In this document: piece by piece, positions 43,582 through 61,421 of the stretch
Numbering within the stretch: position 1 is the stretch's first letter
How the letters are laid out: every line of letters begins with the position of its first letter
Assembly: GCA_026413765.1 (NCBI GenBank)
Contig: JAOAKI010000001.1
Location: 70,325 to 134,324 of the forward strand
Direction of reading: 5' to 3'
Length of the DNA: 64,000 nucleotides
Origin: Microcaldota archaeon
Lineage (GTDB): Archaea; Micrarchaeota; Micrarchaeia; Anstonellales; Anstonellaceae
Notes under the pieces: generated by a model
Told to the model about the DNA's origin: nothing
Databases searched by the model: none
Seen by the model: only the letters and a program-made list of their open reading frames with translations
Translations under genes and position numbers: made by a program

Positions 43582-45285
43582 TTATTCGAATATATGCTCT
43601 ATGATTGCTCCGTATGCTGGCCTTGATATGAACAGGCCAAGCAGCGGGCCAAGCACAGTCGCAGTAGCAAAGCCGATTATCTCAACCAACCCCGAAAACA
43701 GCAACAGAGGCAGCATCGCAACCACTGCAACAAGAACCGAAGTGCTGATAATTCCAAATGCTTTTTCAAGCTTCTTCCTTGCAATTTCTTCCTTTTTGAG
43801 CAACTCGTCAGTGACGATAATCTGCGCATCAACCGACACCCCTATTGCCGCAAGCATGCCTGCCATTGTCGATAGGTCTATGGTAAATGAACCCAATATT
43901 GCCATCATGATGATTATCTCTGCGCAGCTGATTGTTATCATTGGCGCTATGATTCTCAAATGGCGATATCTGAATGCGACCATCAAGGACACAACAAATA
44001 GGGCAACAACAACTCCAATTAAGCTCAGCCTCAGGAATTCCTCTCCGAGTGCAGCAGGAACCACTGTTTTGCTCCCCAGAGTTATTTGGACTGGCAACGC
44101 GCCACCTTTTAAGAGAGACTCCAGCTCCTTTTCCTTTTTGAGAGCGTCTTGCGCTCTTTCTTGCGGGCTATTTCCCTCCGCAAATCCTGTGATGCTGTAG
44201 GCAAAACTTGGTATGCCCTCAGTGACTCCCGGAACCAGCCTTGGCGCAGAAATAAGCCCTACCGCTTTCCAGCTGACCACCGCATCCGAGACAGAGCTTT
44301 CAGCTCCATAAGAAAATTGTGGCGTCATTTCCTCTCTTGTCTTTTGCAACAAAATAAAGCCGCTCTCCCTGAGTCTGTTTTCCAGTGCGCTTCCATTCTC
44401 GATTATTATTTTTGTTATGTTGTGCTTTGCCAGGATGCTCAGATTGCCTTCCACTTCGCTTTCAAGGTATAGCGGAATATCCTGACCTTCAAGTTTCAAG
44501 GCGTTTCTTGCAATCTGTAGTGCTCTCTCTTTTTTAAGCGGGAACTGCTTTCCTGTCGCTTCAAGAAGCCTGCTGTCATTGATTATTACTATCACGTCGC
44601 TTGGCCTGTCCAAAAACATGTAAAGGGGGTAGTTTGCCTTCCCTTTTGCTGCAGCCGCAAACCTCTGGGCGCCGCTTTGCGTAACGGTGAAACTTATCCC
44701 CCAATCTGCATTATGCAAATAAGCAGGCGGAATCCGGACAATATTGTCTGTATAAATGTCATCTCCGCTTATGGCAAGCTTTCCATCCACGATTCCCTGA
44801 TATACTCCTTGCTGCGAAAGCAGATTTTCTATCTGGCTCACCAATTGCGGGCTGCTTTGCGGCACTTCAACATAAATTTCAGAGTCGCCAATTGGCCTTA
44901 CTCTCACTTCAGTAAGCCCAAACGCCGCAGACCTCTTCTTTATCGTGGTTACCATCTCGTCCATTGTTGCGCTGTCCACCGCTTTTTCAAGAAGTATTGG
45001 GATGCGCACGCCCCCAGAAAAGTCGATTCCAAATTTTATGCCATTGAATGCGATCGAGCATATCGACAGGATTACGATTGCAAAAAGGCCTGCCACCCTC
45101 ACATTGTCTTTTTTTAGGAAGGTTATGATTGCGCCTATCAGAACAATAGAAAATATGTAGATCGGCACGCCGTGCTGCCTGTCTATCGCTATTCCAATGC
45201 ACGCAAGAATGGCGAACGCTAATACCAGCAGCACTTCCCGTGCTTGCGCACCTTTTACTATCTGCTCTCTTGAAATCATACTCAT
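43582..45285 (-). CDS. secD: Preprotein translocase subunit SecD
   Basis: The 567-residue membrane protein has an N-terminal helix, the periplasmic-type P1 domain with FGIDFSGGVRIPI (substrate-binding groove) and a C-terminal RND helix bundle including TIDLSTMAGMLAAIGVSVDAQIIVTDELLKK. With SecF it uses the proton gradient to help release proteins on the outer side. Its ATG overlaps the secF stop (ATGA), so the two are co-translated. Confidence 0.94.
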   Translation of the reverse strand: MSMISREQIVKGAQAREVLLVLAFAILACIGIAIDRQHGVPIYIFSIVLIGAIITFLKKDNVRVAGLFAIVILSICSIAFNGIKFGIDFSGGVRIPILLEKAVDSATMDEMVTTIKKRSAAFGLTEVRVRPIGDSEIYVEVPQSSPQLVSQIENLLSQQGVYQGIVDGKLAISGDDIYTDNIVRIPPAYLHNADWGISFTVTQSGAQRFAAAAKGKANYPLYMFLDRPSDVIVIINDSRLLEATGKQFPLKKERALQIARNALKLEGQDIPLYLESEVEGNLSILAKHNITKIIIENGSALENRLRESGFILLQKTREEMTPQFSYGAESSVSDAVVSWKAVGLISAPRLVPGVTEGIPSFAYSITGFAEGNSPQERAQDALKKEKELESLLKGGALPVQITLGSKTVVPAALGEEFLRLSLIGVVVALFVVSLMVAFRYRHLRIIAPMITISCAEIIIMMAILGSFTIDLSTMAGMLAAIGVSVDAQIIVTDELLKKEEIARKKLEKAFGIISTSVLVAVVAMLPLLLFSGLVEIIGFATATVLGPLLGLFISRPAYGAIIEHIFE

Positions 45286-46436
45286 CCCTGGTCCGAAAAC
45301 AAAAGCGCGCTTAAAGGCTTCTTTTCTTCTCCTCTGCTTCCTCCGCCTTCCAAATAGGCTATCACAATCACCGCATTGAGCATCCAGGTGGCTATCAAAT
45401 CCCCAACCAAGCCTGCAAGCGCGACAGCAGAAATCTCAAAATAAGTGTTGATATGTGTGATTGATGCAAGAGCAAAAAGGCAAAGGAACGAAAGCATCAA
45501 AGCAGCACTCATGGTCGTGCCTGTTTTCATCGCCTCATATGCCCTCTCTCTTGGTGTGCCTTCGTGCCTCTTGATGACACGCATTGTCAGCAAAACGTCG
45601 GTGTCCAATGAGAAGCCAATCAGCATCAAAAGTGCGGCAAATGAAGCAAGAGTAAGCGGTATGCCGAAAAAGCCCATTGCGCCCATCGCAATAAGCACGT
45701 CGCACAATGCTCCGATCAACACAGCTGCCGACGGAATGGCAGTCCTAAAGATGAGGAAGACCACAATGCTTACAAAAATTGTAGAGTAAATCACTACATT
45801 TACTGCCTTTTCAAGAAATTTTGCAGAAAGCGATGCTGAAACTTCGTTAAATTGTGCGCTTTCGTATGCCACTAACTGCGACAGCGTTGCCGCCAATTTA
45901 CTGGAATAGCTGTCTAAAATCATCCTGTACGCCGCACTAACAGCTTTCTTCAATTCGTTTGCATTCGCATAGCCAGAGGCATTTTTCTCCAGCCCCGCTA
46001 TCTCAAAAAGCGCATCTGCTTTCTTGTCCAACTCTTTCCTTTCTTGCATGTATTTTTCCAACGCTTCTGCGCTTTGGTTGGTTATGCCAACATCTGCTTC
46101 AAGCTGCGCCACCCTTTCAATTTTTTCAAAAAAAGCGGATTTCAGCTCTTCTGCTTGAGTCAATTTTTCGTCCCTTTCAACTTCAACTTCGACTTTGTAT
46201 CCAGCCGGATTCTTAAGCGACTTTGCAGAAGAAATGGCATAGCCTTTCTGCTCCAGTGCCTCTTTGAGTTTTTCAATATCGACTCCTTCTTTTGTTTGCA
46301 TCGTCACCAATGTTCCGCCTTTGAAATCGACTCCCTTTTTTATTTGCGGGATATAAAAAAGCGAAATCAGAACCAGCACTATCGGCACTAGCGCAAGCAG
46401 CTTGTAATTCCCCCTGTAAATGTTTGGCAATTGCAT
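45282..46436 (-). CDS. secF: Preprotein translocase subunit SecF
   Basis: The 384-residue protein has an N-terminal helix, GVDFKGGTLVTM, and a six-helix RND bundle with LASFAALLMLIGFSLDTDVLLTMRVIKRHEG. A long helical insertion of about 110 residues (roughly 90-200, with QMERKELDKKADALFEIAGL-like charged helices) sits in the external domain. GAGAGGTTATTTTT precedes the ATG. It is the promoter-proximal gene of the secFD operon. Confidence 0.94.
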   Translation of the reverse strand: MQLPNIYRGNYKLLALVPIVLVLISLFYIPQIKKGVDFKGGTLVTMQTKEGVDIEKLKEALEQKGYAISSAKSLKNPAGYKVEVEVERDEKLTQAEELKSAFFEKIERVAQLEADVGITNQSAEALEKYMQERKELDKKADALFEIAGLEKNASGYANANELKKAVSAAYRMILDSYSSKLAATLSQLVAYESAQFNEVSASLSAKFLEKAVNVVIYSTIFVSIVVFLIFRTAIPSAAVLIGALCDVLIAMGAMGFFGIPLTLASFAALLMLIGFSLDTDVLLTMRVIKRHEGTPRERAYEAMKTGTTMSAALMLSFLCLFALASITHINTYFEISAVALAGLVGDLIATWMLNAVIVIAYLEGGGSRGEEKKPLSALLFSDQG

Positions 46437-46491: not shown

Positions 46492-47517
46492 TTAAATTAT
46501 CTTAATCAACCCTCTGCCTATCTCTGCCAAATCTGCGCCAAGCAGAGAGCTTGTCTGCCTTATGAATGTGAAAGTGATTATAAGAGACACAAGCGGGTAA
46601 AACATTGCCTGAAGAAATATTATCCCCACCGAGGCAATAATATAGTCGATCTGATCCGAAATCCACGTCACCAACCCTGCGCCTTCTGCGCTGCTTTGTG
46701 TGGCTTTGCTGTTCAATTTATAGTATATCTCAAATTGATTGCCAGCATCGGTAAAGCAGGGCTCCTCTGAGCTTAGTTGCTGGATTGTCTGGGATGCTTG
46801 TATGTTCTCAATCTCTCTGCACATGTCAGATGAGGAAGGCATTATTGAGATTATCATCACATAGCTTAGCGGAAAGACAAACGCAAATCCAAGCGCAAAA
46901 GCCGTTACGAATCCCCCAATTCCGCGTGTAAGTGGGAAAGAGCGAAGTACCAATCCGATTGGCAAGAATGGGTAAAGCATGGTGTAGTGGGCAAAATGCA
47001 AAAGGTAATATTGGATATAGTGAAATAAGATCAAATATATCATGTTATTTGCAATATAGTGAAATACTGCGACATATCCTGTCAGTGCGAATCCTCCTGA
47101 TATTGGCTCGAGCCCACGGATATCATAAGTAAGAGTGCTCCACGGTTCAACCCACGCATTTAGTGTGTATGCAAGAGTATACACATTGATTTGGCATCTA
47201 ATGACCACAAGAATATATGCTTTTCCTATCTCGCTTGGCGGAAGAAGCGTGTTTGGCGGGACAGTTGAAGCCAGATGAAGGTTCCCTGAAGCTGCCGCAA
47301 TACTTGTTGCAAGAGGCGCAAAAAGGTTAGTGTTCAGTAGCTGAATCGTGGCTGCAACCATGATTATAAGGAAAGTAACAAACACTTGGACATACTCTCC
47401 TTTAACCCACATTCTCAGGTTCTGCAGATTAAAGGCGTTCGCAACCATGTGCAAAATAATTGCTATGAAAAGGGAAATGAACCCAACAATCAAAGAAATT
47501 TCCACCCACATGTCCAT
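46492..47517 (-). CDS. Polytopic membrane protein of the six-paralogue array, copy 6
   Basis: The 341-residue protein (ATG at 47517, after GAGGCTGATTTGAAG) has about six to seven membrane helices. It contains the array motif LPIGLVLRSFPLTRGIGG and a C-terminus ending in LLGADLAEIGRGLIKII. A luminal or external loop with Cys residues (DMCREIENIQ, EEPCFTD) lies between. It is the last of the array, following copy 5 within 2 bases. No known family could be assigned; a VirB6/TrbL-like channel is a guess. Confidence 0.8.
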   Translation of the reverse strand: MDMWVEISLIVGFISLFIAIILHMVANAFNLQNLRMWVKGEYVQVFVTFLIIMVAATIQLLNTNLFAPLATSIAAASGNLHLASTVPPNTLLPPSEIGKAYILVVIRCQINVYTLAYTLNAWVEPWSTLTYDIRGLEPISGGFALTGYVAVFHYIANNMIYLILFHYIQYYLLHFAHYTMLYPFLPIGLVLRSFPLTRGIGGFVTAFALGFAFVFPLSYVMIISIMPSSSDMCREIENIQASQTIQQLSSEEPCFTDAGNQFEIYYKLNSKATQSSAEGAGLVTWISDQIDYIIASVGIIFLQAMFYPLVSLIITFTFIRQTSSLLGADLAEIGRGLIKII

Positions 47518-47519
47518 CT

Positions 47520-48590
47520 TCAAATCAGCCTCGTAAGGTTTGTCACATCTATTTCTTCTCCTAAGAAATGCGTAATGCCTCTTGTCAATTCTACCAACAC
47601 TATGAAATTAATCACAGGCAGAGCCACTGCTGCAATCATATACACCAAAACTGGCTGCAGTAAAATAAATACCCCGCTGGTTGCATTCTCCACAAGTTTA
47701 TTGCGAGTCTGTAAAGTTGCCGGATCTGAAGGGTCCAGCTCCTTTATATTCCGCTGAAAATCGTTTGGAGTCGGAAGCTGGTAGTTGTTCGGATCGGCTT
47801 TGCTGTTCGCAGCGCCAACTTGCTGCGTTATTTCTTGCTCAGCTGCCTCAACTCTGTGCCATACTATATAGTCATTAAATACTATCATTAACGGATAAAA
47901 GAAAAACAAAGCAATAGTAAGTCCGATCAATGTTCCGCCAAGCGGCCTTGTCGGCTCAAATGCCCTAAGAAATATTCCGAAAGGATAAAGGAAAAACAGC
48001 CCAGCAATCGCCATGTATTCCACTATCCTCATTTGCAGCTGCAGCATAAGAAATGAGGTGACATAGCCGCCAAGCATCAAAAACATCAAACCTGTTATTT
48101 GGCTAAATGTCTGCAATGGAGTGCTAGTTGAGCCAACCGCAAGTGGATTGGATGCCCAAGTGGAATTTGCTATTAAATTGACGATTTTTACCACAAAATT
48201 CATATAATAGAATATCAAATAACCCAACTCCTCAATCTGCTTGAAATACCTGTCAACTATGGCCTCCATTTTCATTCCCTGCGGATATCTTGCAGAGTCA
48301 AGAAAACTCATGTCGAAATTGCAAAAGCCATAAATCCAGATTATGCTGAAGCCAATAATTATCGTCGTTCCAAAAATCTGAAAAAGTTCGAATTTTGTCC
48401 ATGCTTCAAGCATCTGGTTGCGCAACGCTTGGGAAACCATATACAAAAACACAAGAATAAACAAAGATGCAAACAATGCTGCGAAAGTAAGCTCTAGCCA
48501 TCCACTCCCAAGAATCCCAAACGAGACTGGTACAACGGGTGCGCTTCCACCCATGCCTAGTGCATTGCACACAGCTTCTCCAAATGTCAT
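47520..48590 (-). CDS. Polytopic membrane protein of the six-paralogue array, copy 5
   Basis: The 356-residue protein has membrane helices at about 20-55, 72-90 and several after 130. Its core FLYPFGIFLRAFEPTRPLGGTLIG is the clearest example of the array signature. It ends GITHFLGEEIDVTNLTRLI, which also recurs in copies 3, 4 and 6. The start ATG overlaps the copy 4 stop (TGATG). It shares no known fold that I can name. Confidence 0.82.
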   Translation of the reverse strand: MTFGEAVCNALGMGGSAPVVPVSFGILGSGWLELTFAALFASLFILVFLYMVSQALRNQMLEAWTKFELFQIFGTTIIIGFSIIWIYGFCNFDMSFLDSARYPQGMKMEAIVDRYFKQIEELGYLIFYYMNFVVKIVNLIANSTWASNPLAVGSTSTPLQTFSQITGLMFLMLGGYVTSFLMLQLQMRIVEYMAIAGLFFLYPFGIFLRAFEPTRPLGGTLIGLTIALFFFYPLMIVFNDYIVWHRVEAAEQEITQQVGAANSKADPNNYQLPTPNDFQRNIKELDPSDPATLQTRNKLVENATSGVFILLQPVLVYMIAAVALPVINFIVLVELTRGITHFLGEEIDVTNLTRLI

Positions 48591-49930
48591 CAAATCAACT
48601 TCTCAAGCGAGCTTAAGTCTATTTCTGTTCCAAGCACTTTGGCAATCTCTTTCGCAAAAGTGATCGTTATGAAGACATTGAATATCGGAAGCAGAATGCT
48701 TACTATAAATACAAAATATATCGTCTGATATAAAGCGTGCATTGCAAACGAAGTGGCAGGGATTATGAATACGACTGCCAACAGGTTGAGGTTGAGGAAC
48801 TTGAGGATAAAGTATGTTGCAACAGTTATCCCGATTGTTTTTGCAACCGACCAAAACTCCCCAGTCGCAGGCCCTGTCAATGCATTGACAAATTGGGCAT
48901 ATACTTTTCCTAGCACAGTGTTGAATATGCAGCTTGCGCCAGTACTTATAGTGGGGTTTGAAAATATCCTGACAACCAGTGGCCCCTTGTTTATTTCCTC
49001 AACCAAAAGCCTCCCTTCTATTGTCGATGTATCGCCATTTGGAATGTATGGCCGAGGATCATCCAAACTTGCAGGGTATGCGTTTCCAAGGCAGCAAATC
49101 GGCCGGTCTAAGCAGTTGATCCAAAGCCCGGAAGAGCTTGTTCCGCTGACAGTCTTGATTTCTCCCTCTATATAGCGGGAAATGATTTCACCACCTTGCA
49201 CGATCAAAAACGGGTAGACAAAATAAAGAGAAAGCGAAACGCCTATCAGGGCGTTGCCTCCACCTTTTATCCCTAGCGCTCTAAGAAAGAGGCCAGCGTT
49301 GAGCAATATCGGCAAAGCACTATCTGCAATAAAGCAAAGCATATACTCATGGGCAAACCAGCTTATTATCGCAGTCGTAATCAATTGCATCAAGAGCCCC
49401 AAAGTGTCATATATCGGCTTGAATGCTGGCGCAACTTGGAAAGTGACATAGATTCCCAGTTGTTTTCCAAATAGCCTTGCATAGGGGGTTACGCTTGTGT
49501 GCAGAGAAAGCAAAGTTGTTGCCCCAAGCATCATTCCAAAATCAGCAATCATTGTGTTCCTGATTATCACCGCATATGCTCTTGCGGTTTCCAAGTTCGT
49601 CTGAGCAAATGGCTGGAAAATGGCAACAATTAAAACAAAGATCCCAACAAGAAGCGCGTTTTCGGCAAGCTCCCAAACTCCTGCCTTTGCAAAATCGCGT
49701 ACTTTCTGCCCTAAAAGGCCACCCAAAATATGCGTCAAGCTATTTATTGACACGCCAAGCGCGATTGCTGCAACCGAAAGCGCCGCCCATCCAAGGTCTT
49801 GCGCTGGACGTCTATTGCACATTACTACTTTCAGGTCAGAATCTACAAACAGTGGATTTTGCCATATCCAGGCAAATCCTTTTTCCATCAAAAACAACAA
49901 TATTAACGCAGCGATTATTTTTTTCATCAT
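48590..49930 (-). CDS. Polytopic membrane protein of the six-paralogue array, copy 4
   Basis: The 446-residue protein starts with a signal-like segment (MMKKIIAALILLFLMEKGFA), then an external part with Cys residues, about seven helices and the variant signature LLNAGLFLRALGIKGGGNALIG. A large loop contains several cysteines (WINCLDRPICCLGNAYP). It ends VLGTEIDLSSLEKLI. It is preceded by copy 3 with an ATGA overlap, indicating translational coupling. Confidence 0.82.
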   Translation of the reverse strand: MMKKIIAALILLFLMEKGFAWIWQNPLFVDSDLKVVMCNRRPAQDLGWAALSVAAIALGVSINSLTHILGGLLGQKVRDFAKAGVWELAENALLVGIFVLIVAIFQPFAQTNLETARAYAVIIRNTMIADFGMMLGATTLLSLHTSVTPYARLFGKQLGIYVTFQVAPAFKPIYDTLGLLMQLITTAIISWFAHEYMLCFIADSALPILLNAGLFLRALGIKGGGNALIGVSLSLYFVYPFLIVQGGEIISRYIEGEIKTVSGTSSSGLWINCLDRPICCLGNAYPASLDDPRPYIPNGDTSTIEGRLLVEEINKGPLVVRIFSNPTISTGASCIFNTVLGKVYAQFVNALTGPATGEFWSVAKTIGITVATYFILKFLNLNLLAVVFIIPATSFAMHALYQTIYFVFIVSILLPIFNVFITITFAKEIAKVLGTEIDLSSLEKLI

Positions 49931-51219
49931 ATCAACCTTGACAGAACAGAAATTTCAACATCTCCTCCTATTAGCGGAGAAAAATACTTCACACTTGCAA
50001 GCATCGTCATAAGACCCAAAAACGGAACCACAAGAGAAAATATTAGCAACGAAGCAAGCATACCTATTGGCCCTTTTGGTCCAAATCCGCTTGATGGTGC
50101 CCCACTGCTAATATAGCCCAAAAAGTCTTTGTACCATGAAGTCCCTTCATACTTTTTCCATATCGCAATGAATGCGCTTCCTAAATTCTCCATCTCATTA
50201 ATCTGGCTTTGAGAGCGCGTATCATTGCACACATCTATCTGAAGCTTTTTTGCAGGATTAAACACCTCTTTTGCATCGCTTGATGAGCCGTAGTCCACGC
50301 TTCCGCCGCTGAAAGGCAAGGTCGCACCCTTGCTTTCGTCATATTTGAACCCAAAGACTCTTCCTCCGGTGTTCCAATTTGCGCCATCCATAAACCCAAA
50401 AAGTATTGCATTGGCAGCGACATAAAACATTGGCATTACTATATAAGCCGAAAGCGCAAGGGCAATAAGCAGGCCGCCAAGTTTTCTCGTGAAATACAAT
50501 ATCCTTAATATCAATCCCATCGAAATCATAACCGGAAATAGCGCGTACCATAAGTAATCCAAAAATATTTGCTGAGCCCTCGCCAACATCATCAATTTCA
50601 CCGAAAGCTCAAAGACAATCGAGAAGAAATCAGCAGCCAGCGCCAAGAAGGCAAAAGGCGACAAATTCAGGTTCCCTTGCCTTTCATCAAACAGTGATGT
50701 CCCGCTAAAAGAAAGATTTGACAAAAATCCATAAAGCCAATAATGCTTCAGGGCAGTTATTGCATTCATTCTTGCTGTCTCGTATAAAGTTTGGAGATAG
50801 TCGGTTGCAAGCTCGATATGGCATGCTCTTCTTTTTGCAAACGGGCAGTTGGCGCCAGTGCAGCAAACAGTGTTTACATAAGTGTTCCACTGACCCGTCC
50901 TGTCATCGCTTAAGTAACTGAGGCTCATAAGCCAAGAGTCTAAAACCTCCACAAGCGCGACAGCAAAGATAAGTATCAGCACAGAAAGGAAAGCCTGCCC
51001 CACTTCCTTCTTTGTCCAGGCTTTCAGCTTCTCGTCGTTTGTCAGAGTAGCCACCATATAAGATATCGACAGCAGAAACACAACTGCCAAAAGCGCCACT
51101 CCAGCAAGCATTTCCCAACCCCATACCCACACGCTTCTTGAGGACGAGGTGCTAGTTGCTCCGCTGCAGCCAAATGCAAGAAAAAGCACGGTTAACAAAA
51201 TCGCACTAGCCGTTTTCAT
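49927..51219 (-). CDS. Polytopic membrane protein of the six-paralogue array, copy 3
   Basis: The 430-residue protein has a signal peptide with a possible lipobox (LFLAFGCSG), then a hydrophobic helix (about 33-60). The signature is SMGLILRILYFTRKLGGLLIAL, and it ends IGGDVEISVLSRLI. An external loop after the first helices holds CCTGANC and RRACH cysteines. It starts 2 bases after copy 2 and overlaps copy 4. Confidence 0.82.
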   Translation of the reverse strand: MKTASAILLTVLFLAFGCSGATSTSSSRSVWVWGWEMLAGVALLAVVFLLSISYMVATLTNDEKLKAWTKKEVGQAFLSVLILIFAVALVEVLDSWLMSLSYLSDDRTGQWNTYVNTVCCTGANCPFAKRRACHIELATDYLQTLYETARMNAITALKHYWLYGFLSNLSFSGTSLFDERQGNLNLSPFAFLALAADFFSIVFELSVKLMMLARAQQIFLDYLWYALFPVMISMGLILRILYFTRKLGGLLIALALSAYIVMPMFYVAANAILFGFMDGANWNTGGRVFGFKYDESKGATLPFSGGSVDYGSSSDAKEVFNPAKKLQIDVCNDTRSQSQINEMENLGSAFIAIWKKYEGTSWYKDFLGYISSGAPSSGFGPKGPIGMLASLLIFSLVVPFLGLMTMLASVKYFSPLIGGDVEISVLSRLI

Positions 51220-51221
51220 AC

Positions 51222-52133
51222 TTACCCCAGCTTTTGTCCAATGAACTTTGTAAAGCTTCTAATGAATGCTATTGTGAGTGTCATTGATAGCGCAGGCAAA
51301 AACAGAGCCTGCAATAGAAGGTAAGATAAAGTAAGCAGCGGGTCAAACAGGATGCTTTCTAGGCTGAAAAATTTCGAGTAGCTAACTTCTGCCATAAAGT
51401 TCGGATATTGTTGTGCGAGTCTTTCTTCGAACTGTTGACTGCTGGCTTGCTTGAATGTTTTTTCCATCATTTTTGGCACGATATAAGCATGCATTGCATA
51501 ACTGTACGGAAAAAGTATTCCAAATCCAATAGCAACTGATATCAGAAATGCGCTTGCATCTCGCAATGGCGGGAATATCCTTGTCAATACCGCAGCAGGC
51601 AGCAGAAACGGAATCAATACTGCCTGAATCGCCTCCAAAATTAGCTGCTGAACCATCAAGCTTGCAGTAAACGGGACAATTATTATCGATAAAAAGTCAA
51701 ATATTCTCTCAAACAATACAGCAGAAGGGAATGTTAGATTTATTGTCCCCCACGCTGCTGGCCCCCATCTCATTGACCAAGCCGCATGGTACTGAAAACG
51801 CAATACTGCTGCTTTCATCGATGCAGCAGTTATCAACATTTTCTGGTTGATAAATGTCAGGTACTCTTTGCCTATTTCGTATGGATCTCTTCCGGTCAAT
51901 AATTCGGTCATTTCAGCTGCAAAACACGTTGCGCCAAATATGCTGATAAACAGGAAAGCAGAAACCGCAAGCTGATAAAGTTCAATCGAGCTGAATGCCT
52001 CATACTCAGGTCTTCTAAAAAAGTTTGCAGCCATGTAAGATATTATCACTACACTTATCATTGTAGCAAGCGCCATGCCCGCGGTAGAATAAATCACATT
52101 GTATAAAAACGCATCATTTGCGCATAATGCCAT
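51222..52133 (-). CDS. Polytopic membrane protein of the six-paralogue array, copy 2
   Basis: The 303-residue protein is the shortest and most diverged copy. Its signature is reduced to VLTRIFPPLRDASAFLISVAIG, with the TR-x-x-G part replaced. It has about six helices and the C-terminal SMTLTIAFIRSFTKFIGQKLG. The ATG at 52133 lies 2 bases after the copy 1 stop, with GGTGTGAAG ahead of it; a GTG at 52139 would overlap that stop. Confidence 0.8.
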   Translation of the reverse strand: MALCANDAFLYNVIYSTAGMALATMISVVIISYMAANFFRRPEYEAFSSIELYQLAVSAFLFISIFGATCFAAEMTELLTGRDPYEIGKEYLTFINQKMLITAASMKAAVLRFQYHAAWSMRWGPAAWGTINLTFPSAVLFERIFDFLSIIIVPFTASLMVQQLILEAIQAVLIPFLLPAAVLTRIFPPLRDASAFLISVAIGFGILFPYSYAMHAYIVPKMMEKTFKQASSQQFEERLAQQYPNFMAEVSYSKFFSLESILFDPLLTLSYLLLQALFLPALSMTLTIAFIRSFTKFIGQKLG

Positions 52134-52135
52134 CT

Positions 52136-53533
52136 TCACACCAGCTTGCTTATTCCAAATACCCTTGGTTCGCCTCCTATCAAAATCGCAAAATCTTTCA
52201 GGAGCGTCATTGTAATGATAATCTCGATTACTAAAAACAACATCGACATAATTGTAAATTGCATTGCATCCATAATTAATATCTCTATCTCCTTGAACAT
52301 TGCCACAGATGCTGCAGGTGGCAGCGGAAATGCAAAAAGCAAGATATTCCTTCCTATACTCTGCATCCTCCTTGCAAGCTCATTTTTTGCATCTTCCATC
52401 ATTTTCTCGGTTTTTGTCCATTTCTCATTGCTGGCGCTTCCACCGCCATAGACCTCCAAGAATACTCTATCATGGGTTTGGGCAGCCTGTTTTAGCGCTT
52501 CGTTGATTTCATCAGCACTCTTTCCATAGCACAAAGAGAAAATAGAAGAGTATTCTCTAAAGTCAGTCAGTGGCGTAGTGCAAACTTTGCTGCCTCCTTG
52601 CTCATACCTGCAATTTCTTGAACAGCACTCATCATCACTTGTGCAAGGCTGGCCATTTGTAAGACAGGCTGGGCCCCCAGGCTGCGGCATCGGATTAGCA
52701 ATCATTTCCCATATTTGTTGATTTATGAGTATGCTGATCGGGTAAATGAAATATCCTGCAAACGCCACCGCAAGTATTGTAGAGCCTGTTTTTCTTGTAA
52801 ATGGGAATGCTCGCAAAATAAGCCCGATCGGCATAAACACAGTAAGAGCGTTCTCCTCAATAAAGGTAAGCAATATTTTTTGTGCCATTATGCTGCCTAG
52901 TGCTGCGCCAACAACATCAACAAGCAGGGTGTGAATGTCGGATATTGGCACCATCGCAATCCAAGGGGCAATACCAAAAGACACATCAATAAAGGGATAA
53001 ATGATAGGCATTCTCAATCCGGTAGAAAGGCCAGAAAGAAGACCAATTACAACCTCAGTCATCATTAGTGACATATAGCCAAATGTCAATTTTCGCATTA
53101 TGACGCCATCAGCCCCAATAATCATGAATGGAGGGGTAGAGGAGGTTATGATGCCTGGTCTGCAGCCAAGAAAATAATCAGCATGGCCATATGCGATGTT
53201 TCCGTTTCTCCATCTTCCATTCTCAAATGGCCCATGCTTTATCTTCCACTCTTCGCAAACTTGAGTTGGCGGAACTCCGCTTAGCATGAAGCCTTCGGCA
53301 ACCTTGTCAAATACGCTTCCAGGAGTGGCCAAGACATAAACTATCAGCAATATGATTGCGCTTACAGCAAGCTCGCCAGTCTCTGCTTTTGCGAACGCCT
53401 TTATTGATGAATTAGACAATGCCTCCCCAACAATAAAAGATAAAGACACAATTGCCACGCCAATAGCAAACGCAATCCCTATCATCTGCCAAGGCCAGCC
53501 AGCAACTACTACTTGAAGCAAATATTCTATCAT
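52136..53533 (-). CDS. Polytopic membrane protein of the six-paralogue array, copy 1, with a knottin-like loop
   Basis: The 465-residue protein has helices at about 15-37, 54-70, 155-195 and 225-272, then a second group near the C-terminus. The signature MPIGLILRAFPFTRKTG is at residues 234-250. After it, residues 290-318 form a cysteine pattern C-x6-C-x5-CC-x3-C-x9-C, as in inhibitor cystine knots. A long helical external segment follows. It is the promoter-proximal copy, with GGTGAAGGCAAA before the ATG, and it has a TATA-like CTATAAAAAT upstream. Confidence 0.85.
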   Translation of the reverse strand: MIEYLLQVVVAGWPWQMIGIAFAIGVAIVSLSFIVGEALSNSSIKAFAKAETGELAVSAIILLIVYVLATPGSVFDKVAEGFMLSGVPPTQVCEEWKIKHGPFENGRWRNGNIAYGHADYFLGCRPGIITSSTPPFMIIGADGVIMRKLTFGYMSLMMTEVVIGLLSGLSTGLRMPIIYPFIDVSFGIAPWIAMVPISDIHTLLVDVVGAALGSIMAQKILLTFIEENALTVFMPIGLILRAFPFTRKTGSTILAVAFAGYFIYPISILINQQIWEMIANPMPQPGGPACLTNGQPCTSDDECCSRNCRYEQGGSKVCTTPLTDFREYSSIFSLCYGKSADEINEALKQAAQTHDRVFLEVYGGGSASNEKWTKTEKMMEDAKNELARRMQSIGRNILLFAFPLPPAASVAMFKEIEILIMDAMQFTIMSMLFLVIEIIITMTLLKDFAILIGGEPRVFGISKLV

Positions 53534-53613: not shown

Positions 53614-56600
53614 ATGGCGACAAAGAGCACTCATGCATTTCTAATTATAATTTTTATATTGTCTGCCTTTGTTCAATGCTCTTTTTCGTTCGAAGTCGTC
53701 AGCGAAGGCAAAGACAAGACTTTCATTGAGCTTTCAGTTGAAAATAAAACAGTCATCGCAAAGATTTCTTACTACAATCTCAGCTATTACAGCAAGCAAA
53801 TGCCGCAAAACTACCCGAATATAGACCAACGACTTGGGACACTGCCACCCGAATTCTTCCAGCCCCCCTCTCGCCCTTATTCAGAAGAGTTTTTCAGGGT
53901 CAAGAGGGAAAACCTTTCTAATGCTTCCATTTATTTTGTTGTGCTCTACAATGGTCAGCAACTGAATATAACAGACGAAAATGGCAACGAAAAATGCTCC
54001 CCTGCTCCAAAAACAGACGAAGCAGGGAAGACAAACTGCACTGTCACTCACTTCCTTTTTGGTGGTCAGGTTAAGGAGGTTGATTCTGAAAAAAGCTGCA
54101 TACTAGTAAAAGCGTCATTCCTTGGCGAGCAGATAGACAAGAAAACCTATAAGCCAAGCTCTCAGACAGTAATTCTCTGCCCAAAGCCATCTGCCTCTGC
54201 TCTTTCACGATTTGGCAGCAGCTTGGCTCTAATACTTTCATCAAACAATCTCTTCATCAACAGCTTATGCTTCCCATTAGCCTTGCTTTTATCTTTACTG
54301 ATTGCTGCAATGTATTATGCTGGAAGAAACCCGCTTTCTCTTTTCGACTTGACTACTCCAAAACTCCCGCACTTGCGCTCATTCAAGATGAAGTCAAAGG
54401 CTTCTCCTCAGATGATGAGGTCAGTAGCAAGAAAATATGCCCAACTACAAGTGAGGGCAGCAAAAAGCGCATCTAAAGCCTTAGCCGAAGTCATAAGAGT
54501 GAGAGGAAAATATGAAGGCAAAAGAAAAGAAGAGATACTGCTTGAAGTCTTAAAAGCAAAAGCCAAAGTTCACCACCTCTTTCATGACTTGAAGCATTCA
54601 ATAGAGGCTTCAAAGGGCAAAGGCCTTACGGATGCCCAAATTCGCAACTTTGAGAGGCGACTTGCCGCTCTTTTTGGCACAGCTCCAGAAGGAAGAAGGG
54701 CATTCAAAATCTGGAAAAAAAATGTGGAGATGACACTGCCATTCATCCAGCTTTACAACGCTGCATACCAGACCTATTCGATGACTGCAAGCGGTCGTGG
54801 GCTTTCAAATTCACTGGTATCAAGGGCAATTGTTACACCACTTTTCAATAAGTTGACAAAGGTCAGCGTTTACTTGGAGGAATTGAAAGGAATAAGGGCA
54901 ATAGGTAAAATCCCAATAGTCAAGAACGTAATCAACACGCCAACGCGTATATTTGATGCAATTGCCCAGCACCGCTCCTCTCGTTTGGGCGCGCTTAATT
55001 TGAGGAGGGAATTAATAGGTGGCGCGGTTTACACCATCCTCAATAGGCTCAACATGGTGGACAAAGCAAAAAACTTCATGCAAAAGTCAGGAATAGAAGC
55101 GTTCTTCAAATGGACACATAAGTGGAGTTTTGACAGCTTTGTTGCCAAGCACGATTTGTATAACCGAAAATTCAGGGAACTTTACGACCCTGTGGAAAAT
55201 GTCCGAAAGCTCTCAATTGACGCATACAATATTGCATACCACGACCTTCTAAGAAAGCTCACCTTTTCGCTTCCGACTAAAATGACGATGGGCGAGATTC
55301 TTGTTTCCATGCAAAATTCTATAAAAGACAAAAAAAGAAACGATCAACTCAAAGATGATTTTAGAAAATTGATCGATGCTTTGGAGAACAATCGGAATAT
55401 CAACCTTGATACTGTTTTGAAGATCGCGCGTGAGCTTAAACTTTCAGAAAAAGACGTCTCTTTTATAAGGAGAGTAGTTGAGCTGCAAGATCAGTGGGGC
55501 AAGATCCAGCAGGCGCTTGAGGCGATAATGAATAAGCCATACGAAAGCCACTATTACAGATTGAAAGCACTCTATGATTTAGCAGTCAAGTACGGTATTG
55601 ATTTAAAATTGGGTGAGGATCTCAATAAATGGAAGGACTACGAGGAAAATGTGATTAGGAAAATAATGCTTGCCCGGATGGAAAACGGCACCTATAAGCC
55701 AATCACATGGGCTGATGTCCGAAATGAGTTTAGAAGTGGCGCATCGACTCGTGACATTCAAACCAAATTCGGTGGTATTGTCTCAAAAGCAGAATACGAA
55801 AGGAGGATGCTTGAGCTGCGCAACAGGGTTCTCTCCTCCACAGATGCAAAAACCTTAAAGGACAATACAATCGGCACAATCCTCACTATCAGAGACAGCA
55901 TCAATGCCAAAATAAATTCCACAGGTCCAACCACCCTTTTTTCCCATATCTATGCAGATGCGCTAGGCTCAAATCCCACGGCATTCTACTTGAACAGGCG
56001 CCTTGCTGAGTTAGGGCTTGGTGACATCAAAGTCAAGAACTTGGACGAATTTGAGATCTTTTTCTTCCGAGGGACGATGTCAGAGTCATTGCGCAGGCGC
56101 CTTGAGAGGATCGCTGCGGATAATAAGCGAACGGTGGATGACCTGCTTAAGGATATCATGGTTGAGGCCTTAAGGTTCCAAGTCTCTGCAAATATTGCAA
56201 ATATCAGGATTGCTGAGCTGATTTTTGGAGACACAGCTTCCCGCAAGAGCGTCTTTTCGGACATCTTCGGTAGCCGAGCAGAGAAACAGATGAAAGGGAT
56301 GATTAAACTTCACGAGCAACTCGAATATTCATTTCAGAGGATATCGTTCAATTATTCACCTTATGATTTGCAGAAAGAGGCACTGTTCAACCAATTGAGG
56401 GTTTCTGAGCGGTCGGCAGGTTTCTTCATCTGGGGCACCAAACGCGGCGGCAGCAATGCAGACAGCGTGATGTGGCTTTTGGATTCGACCTTCAAGCACA
56501 ATGCTGATGCAGTCGGCATGTTGAGAGCCTTCTACAACAATCTCATCAACCGCGAAAGCAGATTCTATGACGAAAAATTTGCGCAAAAGATAAAAGAAGG

Positions 56601-59217
56601 CGATTTTGTTTCAAACTATGATGCACTTCGCGCAAGGGGATATAACTTTTTGGATGTCCGGAACGGCCTTGGCATCCTGCTGAGAGGCGACAAGAAAGGT
56701 AATCTGCCTTTGTTGGAATATGACCCGACCATACTTTCTCAATATCGTTACAATTCCGAAATCGTAAAGAAAGGCGAAGTGCGAGACCTTGGGGCACTGT
56801 TTGCAAGGATAGCAGACTCTCCTTACGTTTATTTGCCTTCAGGTGTGGTGGTGCTTTCAAAATTCACAGATTCATCTGGCAGGATCAGCTGGTTATACGG
56901 TGCGCCTCTGAAATCCAAAGAAGTGGAAAGAGTGTACAGAGAGGCGCTGCAAGACCCCACTTTCAGCCGAACTTCTGAACTATCCAACAAGCTTGTAGGT
57001 TTTGATAAAGACGGCAACTACCGTCCGTCTACCCAACTTATCAAAGTGATCTACGCAAAAGACTTGCAGGAGATCAAAAACAATCCAGACAATTTCTTTG
57101 GATATGTTTCACCCTTTGAAAAATTCAGGAGCAGGATACGTACTGGGCTTCACAAACTTGGGGAGCTGTTTGGCGAGATGTATTATTCTGCGACCGACTA
57201 CCGTGCATCACAGCTTGAAAAATGGTATGCTGCCCAATATCAGATGCGCATGATTCTTGATTCTTATGAGCGCTCTTTTGCCCGTTACATGACGCCTGGC
57301 ACCAAAAGATATGATCCGTCATCTTATATTGAGGATTTGAAATCAGAGGGCCTCAAAACAAATGACCAGCTGCGCATTCGCGTAGCAAACACAATGGAGA
57401 AATTGAAAAGAGGGGAAGGGGGCTGGCTTGACACATTGCGCGCCACTTTTGATGGCTTTAGAAGAAATCTTGCTGCCAAAATAGTCAACGAAGTTGCCGA
57501 GGCGGAATCTGCCTGGTATGCCGCAAAGCTTGAGCTGAGGGCAATCGAGAAGCTGAAAAATGAAGGGGCAATTACAAAAGATGAATATAAGACTCTAAGA
57601 GAAGAAGCACTCTCTAAGATCAGCGGCCTTAAAGAGTCGTACAAAGAGCTAAAAGAAGAGTACAAGCAATACAACGAACTGGCGCGCTATTGGGCAAGCA
57701 GCCACGACAACACTTACGGAACCGCAAGAAACATTTTCAAGGTTCTGCCCGTCTTTACCTCAATTTTTGACAGCAAATTTGTTCAAGGTGCAAAAATAGA
57801 TTATTATTTCATTACCGAATCAAGCGCAATGAGGGATCCGCGCACAGCGACAGGCGCAGGCGTTGGACTTGACTATTCGTTTTATGTCGGTTACCAAACC
57901 GGTCAGACGGTCTATGAAAGGCCAAGATTCTGGACGACAAACGCATTGTGGGAAGAGCAGCTTCGCCTTCCACTTATGTTGTCTTATGCTGTCCACAAAT
58001 GGTTCTATCCTGCAGTAAGCCAGGCGACACGCGACAGAAGCCACTATCCTTCCTATCTTGAGATGGATGCTTTGTATCCAGGCAGGCCGCATAATGAAAG
58101 CCGACTCGGAAAGCATGATCTGTTCATGCCGATGGTCTTGGCTCCTCTAAGAAGGCATTACAGCTCAGATTATTGGAGAACGCGCTTCCAAGCTCTGCTT
58201 GATTTTTCAGGCGCATCCTCACTAATAGGGGCGTATTTTTCAACCTCTCCTTCTCAGACCGAGGCTTCTTTCTTTAGAAGAACAATGGAAAAAATGTTCT
58301 TGCCAAGTCCGCACTATTCAACTGAAGCGCGATTCTTGCTTTCTCAGAGGACATTAGACCAGTTCAAGATGCTTGATGAAGCAAGAGAAAAATATTCAGA
58401 AGTAAAAGAGGCAATCGATACATACATCAACTCAATTGATGGCTCTGAAGCACAAAGGAAAGCTTTAGAAACCATATCTAAATATGTAGAGATTTCGGAC
58501 CGAAGGCCAATTGGCGTCCAGCGTGGAGTTTCAGGTTCGGATATGGAGGAAGATGGCTCGCGGAATCGTTTCATGAACCTTTATGTTGGCTTCCACCAAA
58601 ACATCTGGAAGCCAACCGTTCCAGGGTTGATGGATACTGATCCGATCAGCGGCAAATGGAGGGCATTCCCGCAGACCGCTATGGAAGTCTACCGGGCTCC
58701 AGAAGAAAGCAAGCTTGACAATCTAAGGCAATTCAACCTGCCAACTTATGATGAAAAGACTGGCCGGTTTGTCTTGACTGAGCAGCTTCACAATTATGAT
58801 GACGCAATGCGGGAGGTATACAAGCGCGAAAGTACTCTTTTGATTCATTTGCTGAAGTACCAGCACGAGCTGCAAAGCTATACAATCCTCAACAGCCCAG
58901 CTGTTCTTGTCGCATCGCCTGGCATTGGTTCAGCTCTTGCATTCAACATTAGCAGATTTTTCCTAAGCAAGACTCGGCTCGGCTCTTCGATTACTGAAGA
59001 GGAAGCTTCATTCTCCGAGCGATTTTTCACCCAGAGTTGGTACAGTTCTATTGCAAAAAGATGGGCATTAGCTAAAAACTCTTGGAATGAATTATTAGAA
59101 AGCACGTTAATCTCTCGTTTATCTGGCGCTTCAAGGAAAAGCAGGCTAGAGGAAGATGCCTTAAAACTTGCTATTTACAGCTATAGCAATCTGTCTTCGA
59201 GAGGGTATCTATTATGA
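53614..59217 (+). CDS. Giant 1867-residue single-pass membrane protein, function unknown
   Basis: The protein starts with a signal peptide (about 8-25) and an external domain of roughly 175 residues (with several NxS/T sites and four cysteines at 128, 142, 162 and 189). One strong membrane segment follows at about 212-236. The remaining 1630 residues are cytoplasmic by the positive-inside pattern (RNPLSLFDLT after the helix) and mostly helical and charged, with Tyr/Trp-rich portions near 1430-1560. I see no known catalytic motif and no obvious internal repeat. It is divergent from the six-paralogue array and is followed by the lipoprotein with an ATGA overlap. Composition and length support a real gene. 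Confidence 0.9.
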   Translation: MATKSTHAFLIIIFILSAFVQCSFSFEVVSEGKDKTFIELSVENKTVIAKISYYNLSYYSKQMPQNYPNIDQRLGTLPPEFFQPPSRPYSEEFFRVKRENLSNASIYFVVLYNGQQLNITDENGNEKCSPAPKTDEAGKTNCTVTHFLFGGQVKEVDSEKSCILVKASFLGEQIDKKTYKPSSQTVILCPKPSASALSRFGSSLALILSSNNLFINSLCFPLALLLSLLIAAMYYAGRNPLSLFDLTTPKLPHLRSFKMKSKASPQMMRSVARKYAQLQVRAAKSASKALAEVIRVRGKYEGKRKEEILLEVLKAKAKVHHLFHDLKHSIEASKGKGLTDAQIRNFERRLAALFGTAPEGRRAFKIWKKNVEMTLPFIQLYNAAYQTYSMTASGRGLSNSLVSRAIVTPLFNKLTKVSVYLEELKGIRAIGKIPIVKNVINTPTRIFDAIAQHRSSRLGALNLRRELIGGAVYTILNRLNMVDKAKNFMQKSGIEAFFKWTHKWSFDSFVAKHDLYNRKFRELYDPVENVRKLSIDAYNIAYHDLLRKLTFSLPTKMTMGEILVSMQNSIKDKKRNDQLKDDFRKLIDALENNRNINLDTVLKIARELKLSEKDVSFIRRVVELQDQWGKIQQALEAIMNKPYESHYYRLKALYDLAVKYGIDLKLGEDLNKWKDYEENVIRKIMLARMENGTYKPITWADVRNEFRSGASTRDIQTKFGGIVSKAEYERRMLELRNRVLSSTDAKTLKDNTIGTILTIRDSINAKINSTGPTTLFSHIYADALGSNPTAFYLNRRLAELGLGDIKVKNLDEFEIFFFRGTMSESLRRRLERIAADNKRTVDDLLKDIMVEALRFQVSANIANIRIAELIFGDTASRKSVFSDIFGSRAEKQMKGMIKLHEQLEYSFQRISFNYSPYDLQKEALFNQLRVSERSAGFFIWGTKRGGSNADSVMWLLDSTFKHNADAVGMLRAFYNNLINRESRFYDEKFAQKIKEGDFVSNYDALRARGYNFLDVRNGLGILLRGDKKGNLPLLEYDPTILSQYRYNSEIVKKGEVRDLGALFARIADSPYVYLPSGVVVLSKFTDSSGRISWLYGAPLKSKEVERVYREALQDPTFSRTSELSNKLVGFDKDGNYRPSTQLIKVIYAKDLQEIKNNPDNFFGYVSPFEKFRSRIRTGLHKLGELFGEMYYSATDYRASQLEKWYAAQYQMRMILDSYERSFARYMTPGTKRYDPSSYIEDLKSEGLKTNDQLRIRVANTMEKLKRGEGGWLDTLRATFDGFRRNLAAKIVNEVAEAESAWYAAKLELRAIEKLKNEGAITKDEYKTLREEALSKISGLKESYKELKEEYKQYNELARYWASSHDNTYGTARNIFKVLPVFTSIFDSKFVQGAKIDYYFITESSAMRDPRTATGAGVGLDYSFYVGYQTGQTVYERPRFWTTNALWEEQLRLPLMLSYAVHKWFYPAVSQATRDRSHYPSYLEMDALYPGRPHNESRLGKHDLFMPMVLAPLRRHYSSDYWRTRFQALLDFSGASSLIGAYFSTSPSQTEASFFRRTMEKMFLPSPHYSTEARFLLSQRTLDQFKMLDEAREKYSEVKEAIDTYINSIDGSEAQRKALETISKYVEISDRRPIGVQRGVSGSDMEEDGSRNRFMNLYVGFHQNIWKPTVPGLMDTDPISGKWRAFPQTAMEVYRAPEESKLDNLRQFNLPTYDEKTGRFVLTEQLHNYDDAMREVYKRESTLLIHLLKYQHELQSYTILNSPAVLVASPGIGSALAFNISRFFLSKTRLGSSITEEEASFSERFFTQSWYSSIAKRWALAKNSWNELLESTLISRLSGASRKSRLEEDALKLAIYSYSNLSSRGYLL

Positions 59218-61421
59218 GGCTACTGCTTGCGATTGCTGTGCTTTTTTTCTTTTTTGGCTGCACTCTCAACGTTCCTGCTTCCGAAAAATTTGCAGCCTCC
59301 ACTCTTGCAGTCGGCAGGTTTTCGCCTGCAGATGAGATGGTCTGTCAGCCACTCAATGACTCAAGGCCTTGCTACTGCATGGTCTGCGAAAACAAGACAA
59401 CTTGGTCATCCATCTTCCCTGAAAAGATGCGCAAGCTTATGGCTTTTTTCGATTCGACTTTGCACAAGGGTAATTGCACCTTTATGCACTGCAATATGAC
59501 TGATTTTGTCAACATCATAAGCGAAAAAGAGCGCTATCAGATGCGCTCATTCATGCTCGGAATCGGTCCCTCCGCAAGCGCGGTTGATAACGCAAATCTT
59601 TTCTGCAATTATTCTCTCCAGCTTTCTTTCAAATGGCTGAAAGGCTCTGTGTTTAATAGCCCAGAGATCCCAAGCCCGCGATCAGCAAAATGCTGGCTCG
59701 AGCGAAATATCCTCCCAGTCTACCTATATTACACCGAAGGCAAAAACATCGACGTATGGAGGACTGCCCAGATTGCGCAAGCATTCAATGATGTTGGGCC
59801 GGTGCTTCTTTCCACCGAAGTCTGGTTCGATCCAAATGATCCTCAAGCAATCGAAGGCATCAAAGGACAAATTGACGCAATAAAAGCAAATTGCAACAGC
59901 TGTCTCGTCGTTCTCATGCTGAACGGATCAATCCAAGATCGAAAGCTTGTCTTAGAGAAAATATTCGGTAGAGGGGACATAAAGACTGGAGCAGGATTCA
60001 GCCCATATTACCAGAAAGTAGATGTTGTCGGATTTGGTTTTCTTGCAAACGATTATCCAACCTGCAATCCAGTTGACGTCATTGGGGAGAACTTTCTTTT
60101 TTCAAGATTTGTTTTGAAAAAATACTCGAAGCCGACTCTTTGGGCGTATGTAGGAGTAAGTAAAGGAAATAATAGTTTTGGCACATGCAGCTGGGATGAA
60201 GAGGCAGTGCATAACTTTTATCAGCAGCTTTTTGCAAGCATCCAAGCAATGTCAAGCTCAGGGATTATTGGCGTCGGCTTCTATGAGTTTTCAGACTATG
60301 CAGGCCCACTTCCTTGCGACAACAAAATTCAGGGATGCGAGTTTGGCCTTTTGGATTCTTTTGGAAACCAAAAGCACCCAGCAATCAACACATGGTCTTC
60401 CCTTTGCCAGTATTTTGGCACTGTGCAGTTCAGAAGCCCGCTTATCTTTTCAAGAAATGGCTACGGCTCGGTTTGCGACCCTATGCAACTGCAGAATAAC
60501 AAGATGTTTACAGCGATTTCTTTTGAACTAAATAGCGGAAAGCCTCTGCCAAATTCTATTGTTCCTACAGCCCCAAAAGAAAAATATCTTCGCTGTAGCG
60601 ACATTTGTGTTTCCGACGTGCCGCTGAATGATTGGCAGATTTTCGACAACACTGGAGACACATTCGATTCTGCCCATTGCGATCTCTACCCATTCATAGA
60701 GGAATTAGCAGAAGAAAAAGAAATCAGCGCCTTGTTTTTCAGAGCAATAGTTGAGCAGGAAAGCAACTTCAACCCATACGCAGTTTCTTGCATAGACCAA
60801 AATTCGCCAAATTGCAATCCTGCAAACCTTTCTATTGCAGAGATTTGCCGGCTGGCAAACCTTTCTGATGACTGCGGCCAAGTGGTAGGCGGAGGCAGCT
60901 CCTGTCCGGCAGGCATGAAGCCGTGTGCATTTGGCATTGCGCAATGCATTGCTTACCCCGGCAAATATTATGTCCAGCGCGGGATTGACCTTCCGCTTGA
61001 AATCCGAAATTGCGGAAAAAGCAAGAAAGGCATAGATTACAATCCATTTGATCCGCAGGATAGTGTTTGCTGCGGAACTTCTGTTTTGAAATATTATCTG
61101 GACATTTCACCATCAGCAGGCAGAAACTTTGTCCAAAACAACTGGAACACGCTTACTTCCTGCCCGCAAGGCATCAAAGATGACAAGGAGTGGGTAGCTT
61201 ATTTCTTGGCTGCTAACACCTATTATGGCTATCCTAATGATTTTTCAGGCTTCCTATCTCAGCTTAACAATTGTCAAGGCCAACAAAATTACATTTCCTA
61301 TCTGAGAAGCAAGGGATACTCCTATGCAGCACGTGTACTTTCCCGCTACCTTGACGCTATAGACAAGTGCGGCTCGGATTGCCCTGGAAAAGCCGTACAG
61401 ATAGCCTCCAATCCTCCTTAA
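59214..61421 (+). CDS. Secreted lipoprotein with a lytic-transglycosylase/lysozyme-like C-terminal domain
   Basis: The 735-residue protein has a lipoprotein signal (FFFFGCTL, Cys16), a Cys-rich segment to about 165, then a possible TIM-barrel-like region (about 165-400, YLYYTEGKN..., VDVVGFGFL, GIIGVGFYEFSDYAGP). An SLT-type domain follows at about 495-720. In it, ALFFRAIVEQESNFNPYAVSC carries the likely catalytic Glu516, CAFGIAQ replaces GxxGLMQ, and long Cys-containing insertions separate motifs. Archaea lack murein, so the substrate may be pseudomurein-like, S-layer glycan or bacterial peptidoglycan. It is translationally coupled to the giant gene. Confidence 0.75.
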   Translation: MRLLLAIAVLFFFFGCTLNVPASEKFAASTLAVGRFSPADEMVCQPLNDSRPCYCMVCENKTTWSSIFPEKMRKLMAFFDSTLHKGNCTFMHCNMTDFVNIISEKERYQMRSFMLGIGPSASAVDNANLFCNYSLQLSFKWLKGSVFNSPEIPSPRSAKCWLERNILPVYLYYTEGKNIDVWRTAQIAQAFNDVGPVLLSTEVWFDPNDPQAIEGIKGQIDAIKANCNSCLVVLMLNGSIQDRKLVLEKIFGRGDIKTGAGFSPYYQKVDVVGFGFLANDYPTCNPVDVIGENFLFSRFVLKKYSKPTLWAYVGVSKGNNSFGTCSWDEEAVHNFYQQLFASIQAMSSSGIIGVGFYEFSDYAGPLPCDNKIQGCEFGLLDSFGNQKHPAINTWSSLCQYFGTVQFRSPLIFSRNGYGSVCDPMQLQNNKMFTAISFELNSGKPLPNSIVPTAPKEKYLRCSDICVSDVPLNDWQIFDNTGDTFDSAHCDLYPFIEELAEEKEISALFFRAIVEQESNFNPYAVSCIDQNSPNCNPANLSIAEICRLANLSDDCGQVVGGGSSCPAGMKPCAFGIAQCIAYPGKYYVQRGIDLPLEIRNCGKSKKGIDYNPFDPQDSVCCGTSVLKYYLDISPSAGRNFVQNNWNTLTSCPQGIKDDKEWVAYFLAANTYYGYPNDFSGFLSQLNNCQGQQNYISYLRSKGYSYAARVLSRYLDAIDKCGSDCPGKAVQIASNPP

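Follow-up and report, generated by a model that had tools for sequence, protein, structure and literature searches.

A knottin-like module in a probably external loop of an archaeal membrane protein and its tandem relatives on a putative pilin-type protein

What is a six-cysteine cluster of the kind known from venom peptides doing in a membrane protein of an archaeon? The question is raised by one gene in the window studied here, a stretch of 64,000 nucleotides (positions 70,325 to 134,324 of contig JAOAKI010000001.1, assembly GCA_026413765.1, Microcaldota archaeon) that is part of an 840-kb genome. The gene, array copy 1 (52136..53533, minus strand), is the first of six adjoining paralogs, and its open reading frame (ORF), hydropathy, loop charge and predicted helices describe a 465-residue protein with multiple transmembrane (TM) segments. 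Residues 290-318, in the loop after TM6 (52580..52666, minus strand), read CLTNGQPCTSDDECCSRNCRYEQGGSKVC, with the spacing C-x6-C-x5-CC-x3-C-x9-C. The ORF translation thus matches exactly the pattern in which the initial annotation had recognised an inhibitor cystine knot (ICK), or knottin, and the intervals of 6, 5, 0, 3 and 9 residues fall within the published spacing for this fold, CX3-7CX3-8CX0-7CX1-4CX4-13C (PMC4942781). This pattern is not due to chance, because a much looser version of it arose only once in 300,000 random trials (run with ten cysteines on a chain of 465 residues, whereas the protein itself contains nine) and because a module stands at the same spot in all nine copy-1 orthologs.

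An ICK-type fold of the module is well supported by its spacing, by profile matches to solved ICK peptides and by a predicted-fold match. The structure prediction that the initial annotation had called for was made on a 57-residue module model, which has a core pLDDT (predicted local distance difference test score) of 83-85 and predicted strands at 30-32 and 38-40, and would adopt a small β-hairpin fold like that of solved knottins. Its best Foldseek match in the PDB is omega-atracotoxin-Hv1a (probability 0.99), and the next matches include SOTI-III and Aps III. A profile of 23 archaeal modules, searched against PDB chains, found omega-conotoxin Bu8 (5.3e-6), SO3 (1.4e-5) and omega-atracotoxin (1.4e-4), and a profile of the eight orthologous modules found LEAP-2 (1.9e-6, the best match) and omega-atracotoxin (4e-4). 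Pfam returned sub-threshold matches of copy 1 to the omega-atracotoxin and PhTx toxin families, and an NCBIfam search yielded nothing useful. These matches are so short that they show the class of fold and not common descent. That the best of them are venom peptides and a trypsin inhibitor could suggest a secreted toxin or inhibitor acting on the channel or protease of a neighbour, as animal and plant knottins do, but a knottin fold is no predictor of activity, the module is tethered in a membrane-protein loop without a peptide precursor, and its loops share little sequence between orthologs. We consider such an activity very unlikely and do not propose the module as a toxin.

The loop that carries the module is likely extracellular, as the initial annotation had proposed, and a cytoplasmic location is not what is predicted. 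The predicted helices are compatible with some seven TM segments, the N-terminus lying outside and the C-terminus inside, and this arrangement agrees with the positive-inside rule: lysine and arginine amount to 14-25 per 100 residues in the loops predicted inside, compared with 9.8 in the module loop and 5.8 in loop 1, both predicted outside. In addition, a second six-gene array in the same genome (contig C14, L091:505-10750) has three subunits with N-terminal cysteine modules. By inspection, copies 4 and 5 have N-terminal signal peptides followed by modules and then a TM domain, and copy 3 (L091:2691-6122) shows an extended cysteine-rich region in apparently the same loop as the copy-1 module. 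This region is a very long repeat of the CxxCPxxCR type with no Pfam match. Archaeal cysteine-rich motifs often bind zinc or iron-sulfur clusters, and a cytoplasmic metal-binding cluster would be the corresponding explanation here, but the loop is predicted outside, the adjacent CC and the ICK spacing are of another kind, and the profiles match disulfide peptides and not metal sites; of all readings discussed here, we regard it as the least probable.

The copy-1 module is one of many. A module-profile search of the order identified, in the same genome, an 853-residue protein (L070:3490-6051, contig C3) that begins with a motif of the pilin-type class III signal, KGQASPEY, and a hydrophobic stretch, and continues with about 25 tandem modules, 22 of which are perfect by pattern. 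In Pfam it matches Dickkopf_N (PF04706; 6.7e-21, 74.8 bits, cut-off 25) and Toxin_12 (1e-7, 32.9 bits, cut-off 21). None of 14 control genomes yielded a Dickkopf_N match, and array copy 1 itself has no Pfam match to it at E<=1. Similar tandem-module proteins occur in genomes G012 and G013, several with the class III signal motif; a 10-kb stretch of G013 (L072, contig C22) holds consecutive tandem-module genes, three with that motif, as an expanded knottin-repeat cluster. Two genomes of the same genus as the window, G002 and G009, encode proteins that combine modules with LamG domains (L074:728-4591 and L073:579-3074). In G009 the LamG-module gene precedes the gene of a T2SSE-type pilus ATPase, and of the two loci L074:728-4591 is the one beside a pilus ATPase gene; a LamG-knottin protein beside the window's own pilus ATPase, as in G009, was looked for and is not there. 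Across the phylum, 18 of 295 genomes passed a threshold of E 1e-5 in the module search, a patchy distribution. The initial annotation, which saw a single module, could not have had these tandem arrays and second-array decorations in view.

The tandem modules also bear on how the cysteines pair. In the ICK, C1 pairs with C4, the full connectivity being C1-C4, C2-C5 and C3-C6. Among tandem modules from several genera, 100 have both C1 and C4, 31 have neither and 24 are discordant (odds ratio 22), and a stricter parse of 202 candidate modules gave an odds ratio of 18, with only four C4-bearing modules that have no C1 in range, three of which have C1 slightly further upstream. The corresponding p-values of 1e-13 and 4e-8 overstate the certainty, since modules within one protein are not independent, although the direction is clear. 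As such, the joint gain and loss of the two residues supports the C1-C4 pair, the one of the three expected pairs that this covariation test covers. The four-cysteine modules retain C2, C3, C5 and C6, and in the disulfide-directed β-hairpin (DDH) fold it is C2-C5 and C3-C6 that pair (PMC4942781). As disulfide sources, VKOR and Thioredoxin_4 were considered and rejected, since searches of this genome detected neither; across the order VKOR-like matches are uncommon, at 6 of 84, the module-rich G012, G013 and G069 among them. Contig C11 of the window genome encodes two adjoining membrane-anchored thioredoxin-fold proteins (L109:48-1818), the first with WCPHC, the other GILT-like with CPYG, and these candidate thiol oxidoreductases could oxidise exported cysteines.

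A clear copy-1 ortholog is found in eight of the ten genomes of the genus, the window genome included, and all eight (window and L002-L008) carry a cysteine module at the same position, in most cases followed by a conserved TDFxxY segment. One more public metagenome-assembled genome, L031, has a module in its copy-1 ortholog, CKALGETCSADYDCCSDDCRYSQKSAERKC, in a protein 48% identical to that of the window; the contig is labelled Woesearchaeota, other close relatives being Micrarchaeota, and the label may be wrong. Six cysteines are present in seven of these nine orthologs, three of which (L004, L007 and L008) have C1 shifted 4-5 residues upstream. L006 has neither C1 nor C4 and keeps the two-disulfide core of C2, C3, C5 and C6, and L005 has no C4 and instead shows a shifted set with two upstream cysteines. 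The initial annotation had named the loss of the cysteines in close relatives as grounds for giving up its reading, and such a loss is not what we observe. The insert is absent from 22 aligned loci of other genera, in which the loop differs in length and sequence, and these alignments are most simply explained by one insertion close to the root of the genus.

An insert confined to one genus, with cysteines lost in L005 and L006, might also have arisen by selfish or near-neutral spread, that is, by copying from tandem-array genes into a permissive loop where it slowly degrades. We hold this to be improbable, given that four cysteines are invariant across the eight aligned genus members at an overall identity to the window protein of 36-47%, and that C1 and C4 change jointly and not randomly. 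Outside the module, the ortholog alignment shows three cysteines invariant in the genus (all on the minus strand): Cys335 shortly after the module (52529..52531), and Cys93 (53255..53257) and Cys124 (53162..53164) in loop 1, predicted outside, the latter two being possible disulfide partners.

Taken with the use of the same module elsewhere in the genome, these data lead us to favour, with some reservation, a disulfide-locked surface-display module that serves as a contact or recognition knob on array copy 1 and, in tandem arrays, is part of pilus-like fibres. The insertion itself is shown by the comparison of orthologs: a compact ICK-type module entered the first protein of the conserved six-gene array in the loop that follows TM6, probably in a single event when the genus arose. 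According to our proposal, exported, membrane-anchored thiol oxidoreductases would oxidise it to C1-C4, C2-C5 and C3-C6, and the resulting fold would be a rigid, protease-resistant scaffold whose inter-cysteine loops are free to vary. The copy-1 module would then most likely lie exposed at the surface as a knob for contact or recognition on an envelope complex of array proteins, and the tandem arrays might form the shaft of pilus-like fibres or their adhesive portion, with cell-to-cell contact as a plausible purpose. Of the recognition tip suggested by the initial annotation, the external knottin has held up, whereas recognition itself is a role that we infer.

Several results weigh against this proposal. 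The 57-residue model reaches a Foldseek E of only 0.022, the 853-residue protein scores 15.5 on PF04021 (cut-off 23.7) for its class III signal, and the genome yielded neither classical VKOR nor Thioredoxin_4. The cysteine set is degraded or altered in two of the nine orthologs, and the non-cysteine positions of the module vary about as much as the adjoining linker (mean identity 0.21 versus 0.19), so that nothing points specifically to diversifying selection. The last two of these points, together with the position of the insert in a loop that differs between genera in both length and sequence, would suit a structural brace, in which the knottin does no more than stiffen and protect a long exposed loop, or cap the complex, with no contact beyond the array proteins. 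What speaks against such a brace, and suggests display, is that the same module recurs in long tandem chains on a protein with a pilin-type signal motif, on further subunits of the arrays and alongside lectin-like LamG; we see the brace as a possible but doubtful explanation.

The surface-display proposal places the module within an envelope complex, and the surroundings of the gene are of interest in this respect. The other five paralogs, identified by alignment and BLAST, follow on the minus strand as copy 2 (51222..52139), copy 3 (49927..51219), copy 4 (48590..49930), copy 5 (47520..48593) and copy 6 (46492..47523). The array as a whole (46492-53533) is flanked by genes that are kept in its neighbourhood: downstream, a SecD/SecF pair (43582..46436, minus strand; PF02355, 5e-10 and 4e-24), and on the other side, on the plus strand, a divergent gene for a 1867-residue protein with an N-terminal signal (53614..59217), an ORF with no Pfam family above cut-off whose place is held by a large protein throughout the genus, and a gene for a 735-residue lipoprotein-like protein with an SLT domain (59214..61421; PF01464, 24.5 bits, cut-off 21.3). 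An SLT (lysozyme-like) domain in an archaeal lipoprotein-like protein, with a large region ahead of the domain, is an observation in itself. The layout of the array and its neighbours recurs in relatives whose contigs are long enough. When the two arrays of the genome are compared, each copy of the first finds its positional partner as best match in the second (with a tie for copy 1), and in the reverse direction this holds for five of six copies. Because both arrays retain six ordered subunits, we suggest that the array proteins form a heteromeric complex. More tentatively, we speculate that these archaea might carry chains of cystine knots both on pilus fibres and on a heteromeric envelope machine of six distinct multi-TM paralogs. 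Such a contact apparatus would be built on knottins, and single proteins of it would hold knotted six-cysteine modules next to unknotted four-cysteine ones.

Knottins have been studied almost entirely in eukaryotes. A survey of the PDB predicted no archaeal chain as a knottin (PMC4491269), a discussion of cysteines in archaeal pilus systems leaves knots unmentioned (PMC4858521), and our literature search for knottins with archaea or archaeal pilins, which left most subscription papers outside its reach, found no report; the remark of the initial annotation that such a module would be unusual in an archaeon fits this literature. The copy-1 module thus belongs to a surface-display toolkit for which we found no archaeal description in the literature searched, and the routine use of a knottin fold to build the surface of a reduced DPANN-type archaeon offers a possible molecular handle on how such cells make contact with others. 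In addition, the relation of knotted and unknotted disulfide folds has been called controversial (PMC4942781), and the mixture of six- and four-cysteine modules in one protein represents a natural test of their interconversion.

Compared with known systems, the module shares cysteine order and spacing, as well as profile and fold matches, with omega-conotoxins, omega-atracotoxin-Hv1a and SOTI-III, but unlike the ICK toxins it is not a free secreted peptide, being built into the loop of a membrane protein or strung in tandem, and its disulfides are predicted. The two-disulfide cores of DDH folds and LEAP-2 have their likeness in the C2, C3, C5 and C6 kept by the four-cysteine modules and by the L006 module, the difference being that the archaeal four-cysteine modules share their tandem proteins with complete six-cysteine modules. 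With respect to Dickkopf_N, the same-genome tandem modules exceed the Pfam cut-off (74.8 versus 25 bits) and the single copy-1 module does not match. The secreted cysteine-rich repeat proteins (SCREPs), in the part of their description available to us (PMC6262176), also consist of repeated disulfide-rich domains and would accommodate the tandem proteins, but are bacterial and eukaryotic, whereas here the modules are found on putative pilin-type and on multi-TM archaeal proteins; array copy 1, with its single module, is not SCREP-like. Like archaeal type IV pilins, the 853-residue and related tandem proteins begin with a [KR]GQxxxEY-type motif and a hydrophobic stretch, but their remainder is a long chain of knottin modules and the Pfam signal score lies under the cut-off. 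Finally, the array proteins resemble VirB6/TrbL of type IV secretion in being polytopic membrane proteins near an SLT-domain gene, but we rejected this identity, as the genome has no TrbL (PF04610) match at E<=10 and the array has no sequence or fold match in the PDB, the fold search being a weak one with a full-length model of mean pLDDT 66.5.
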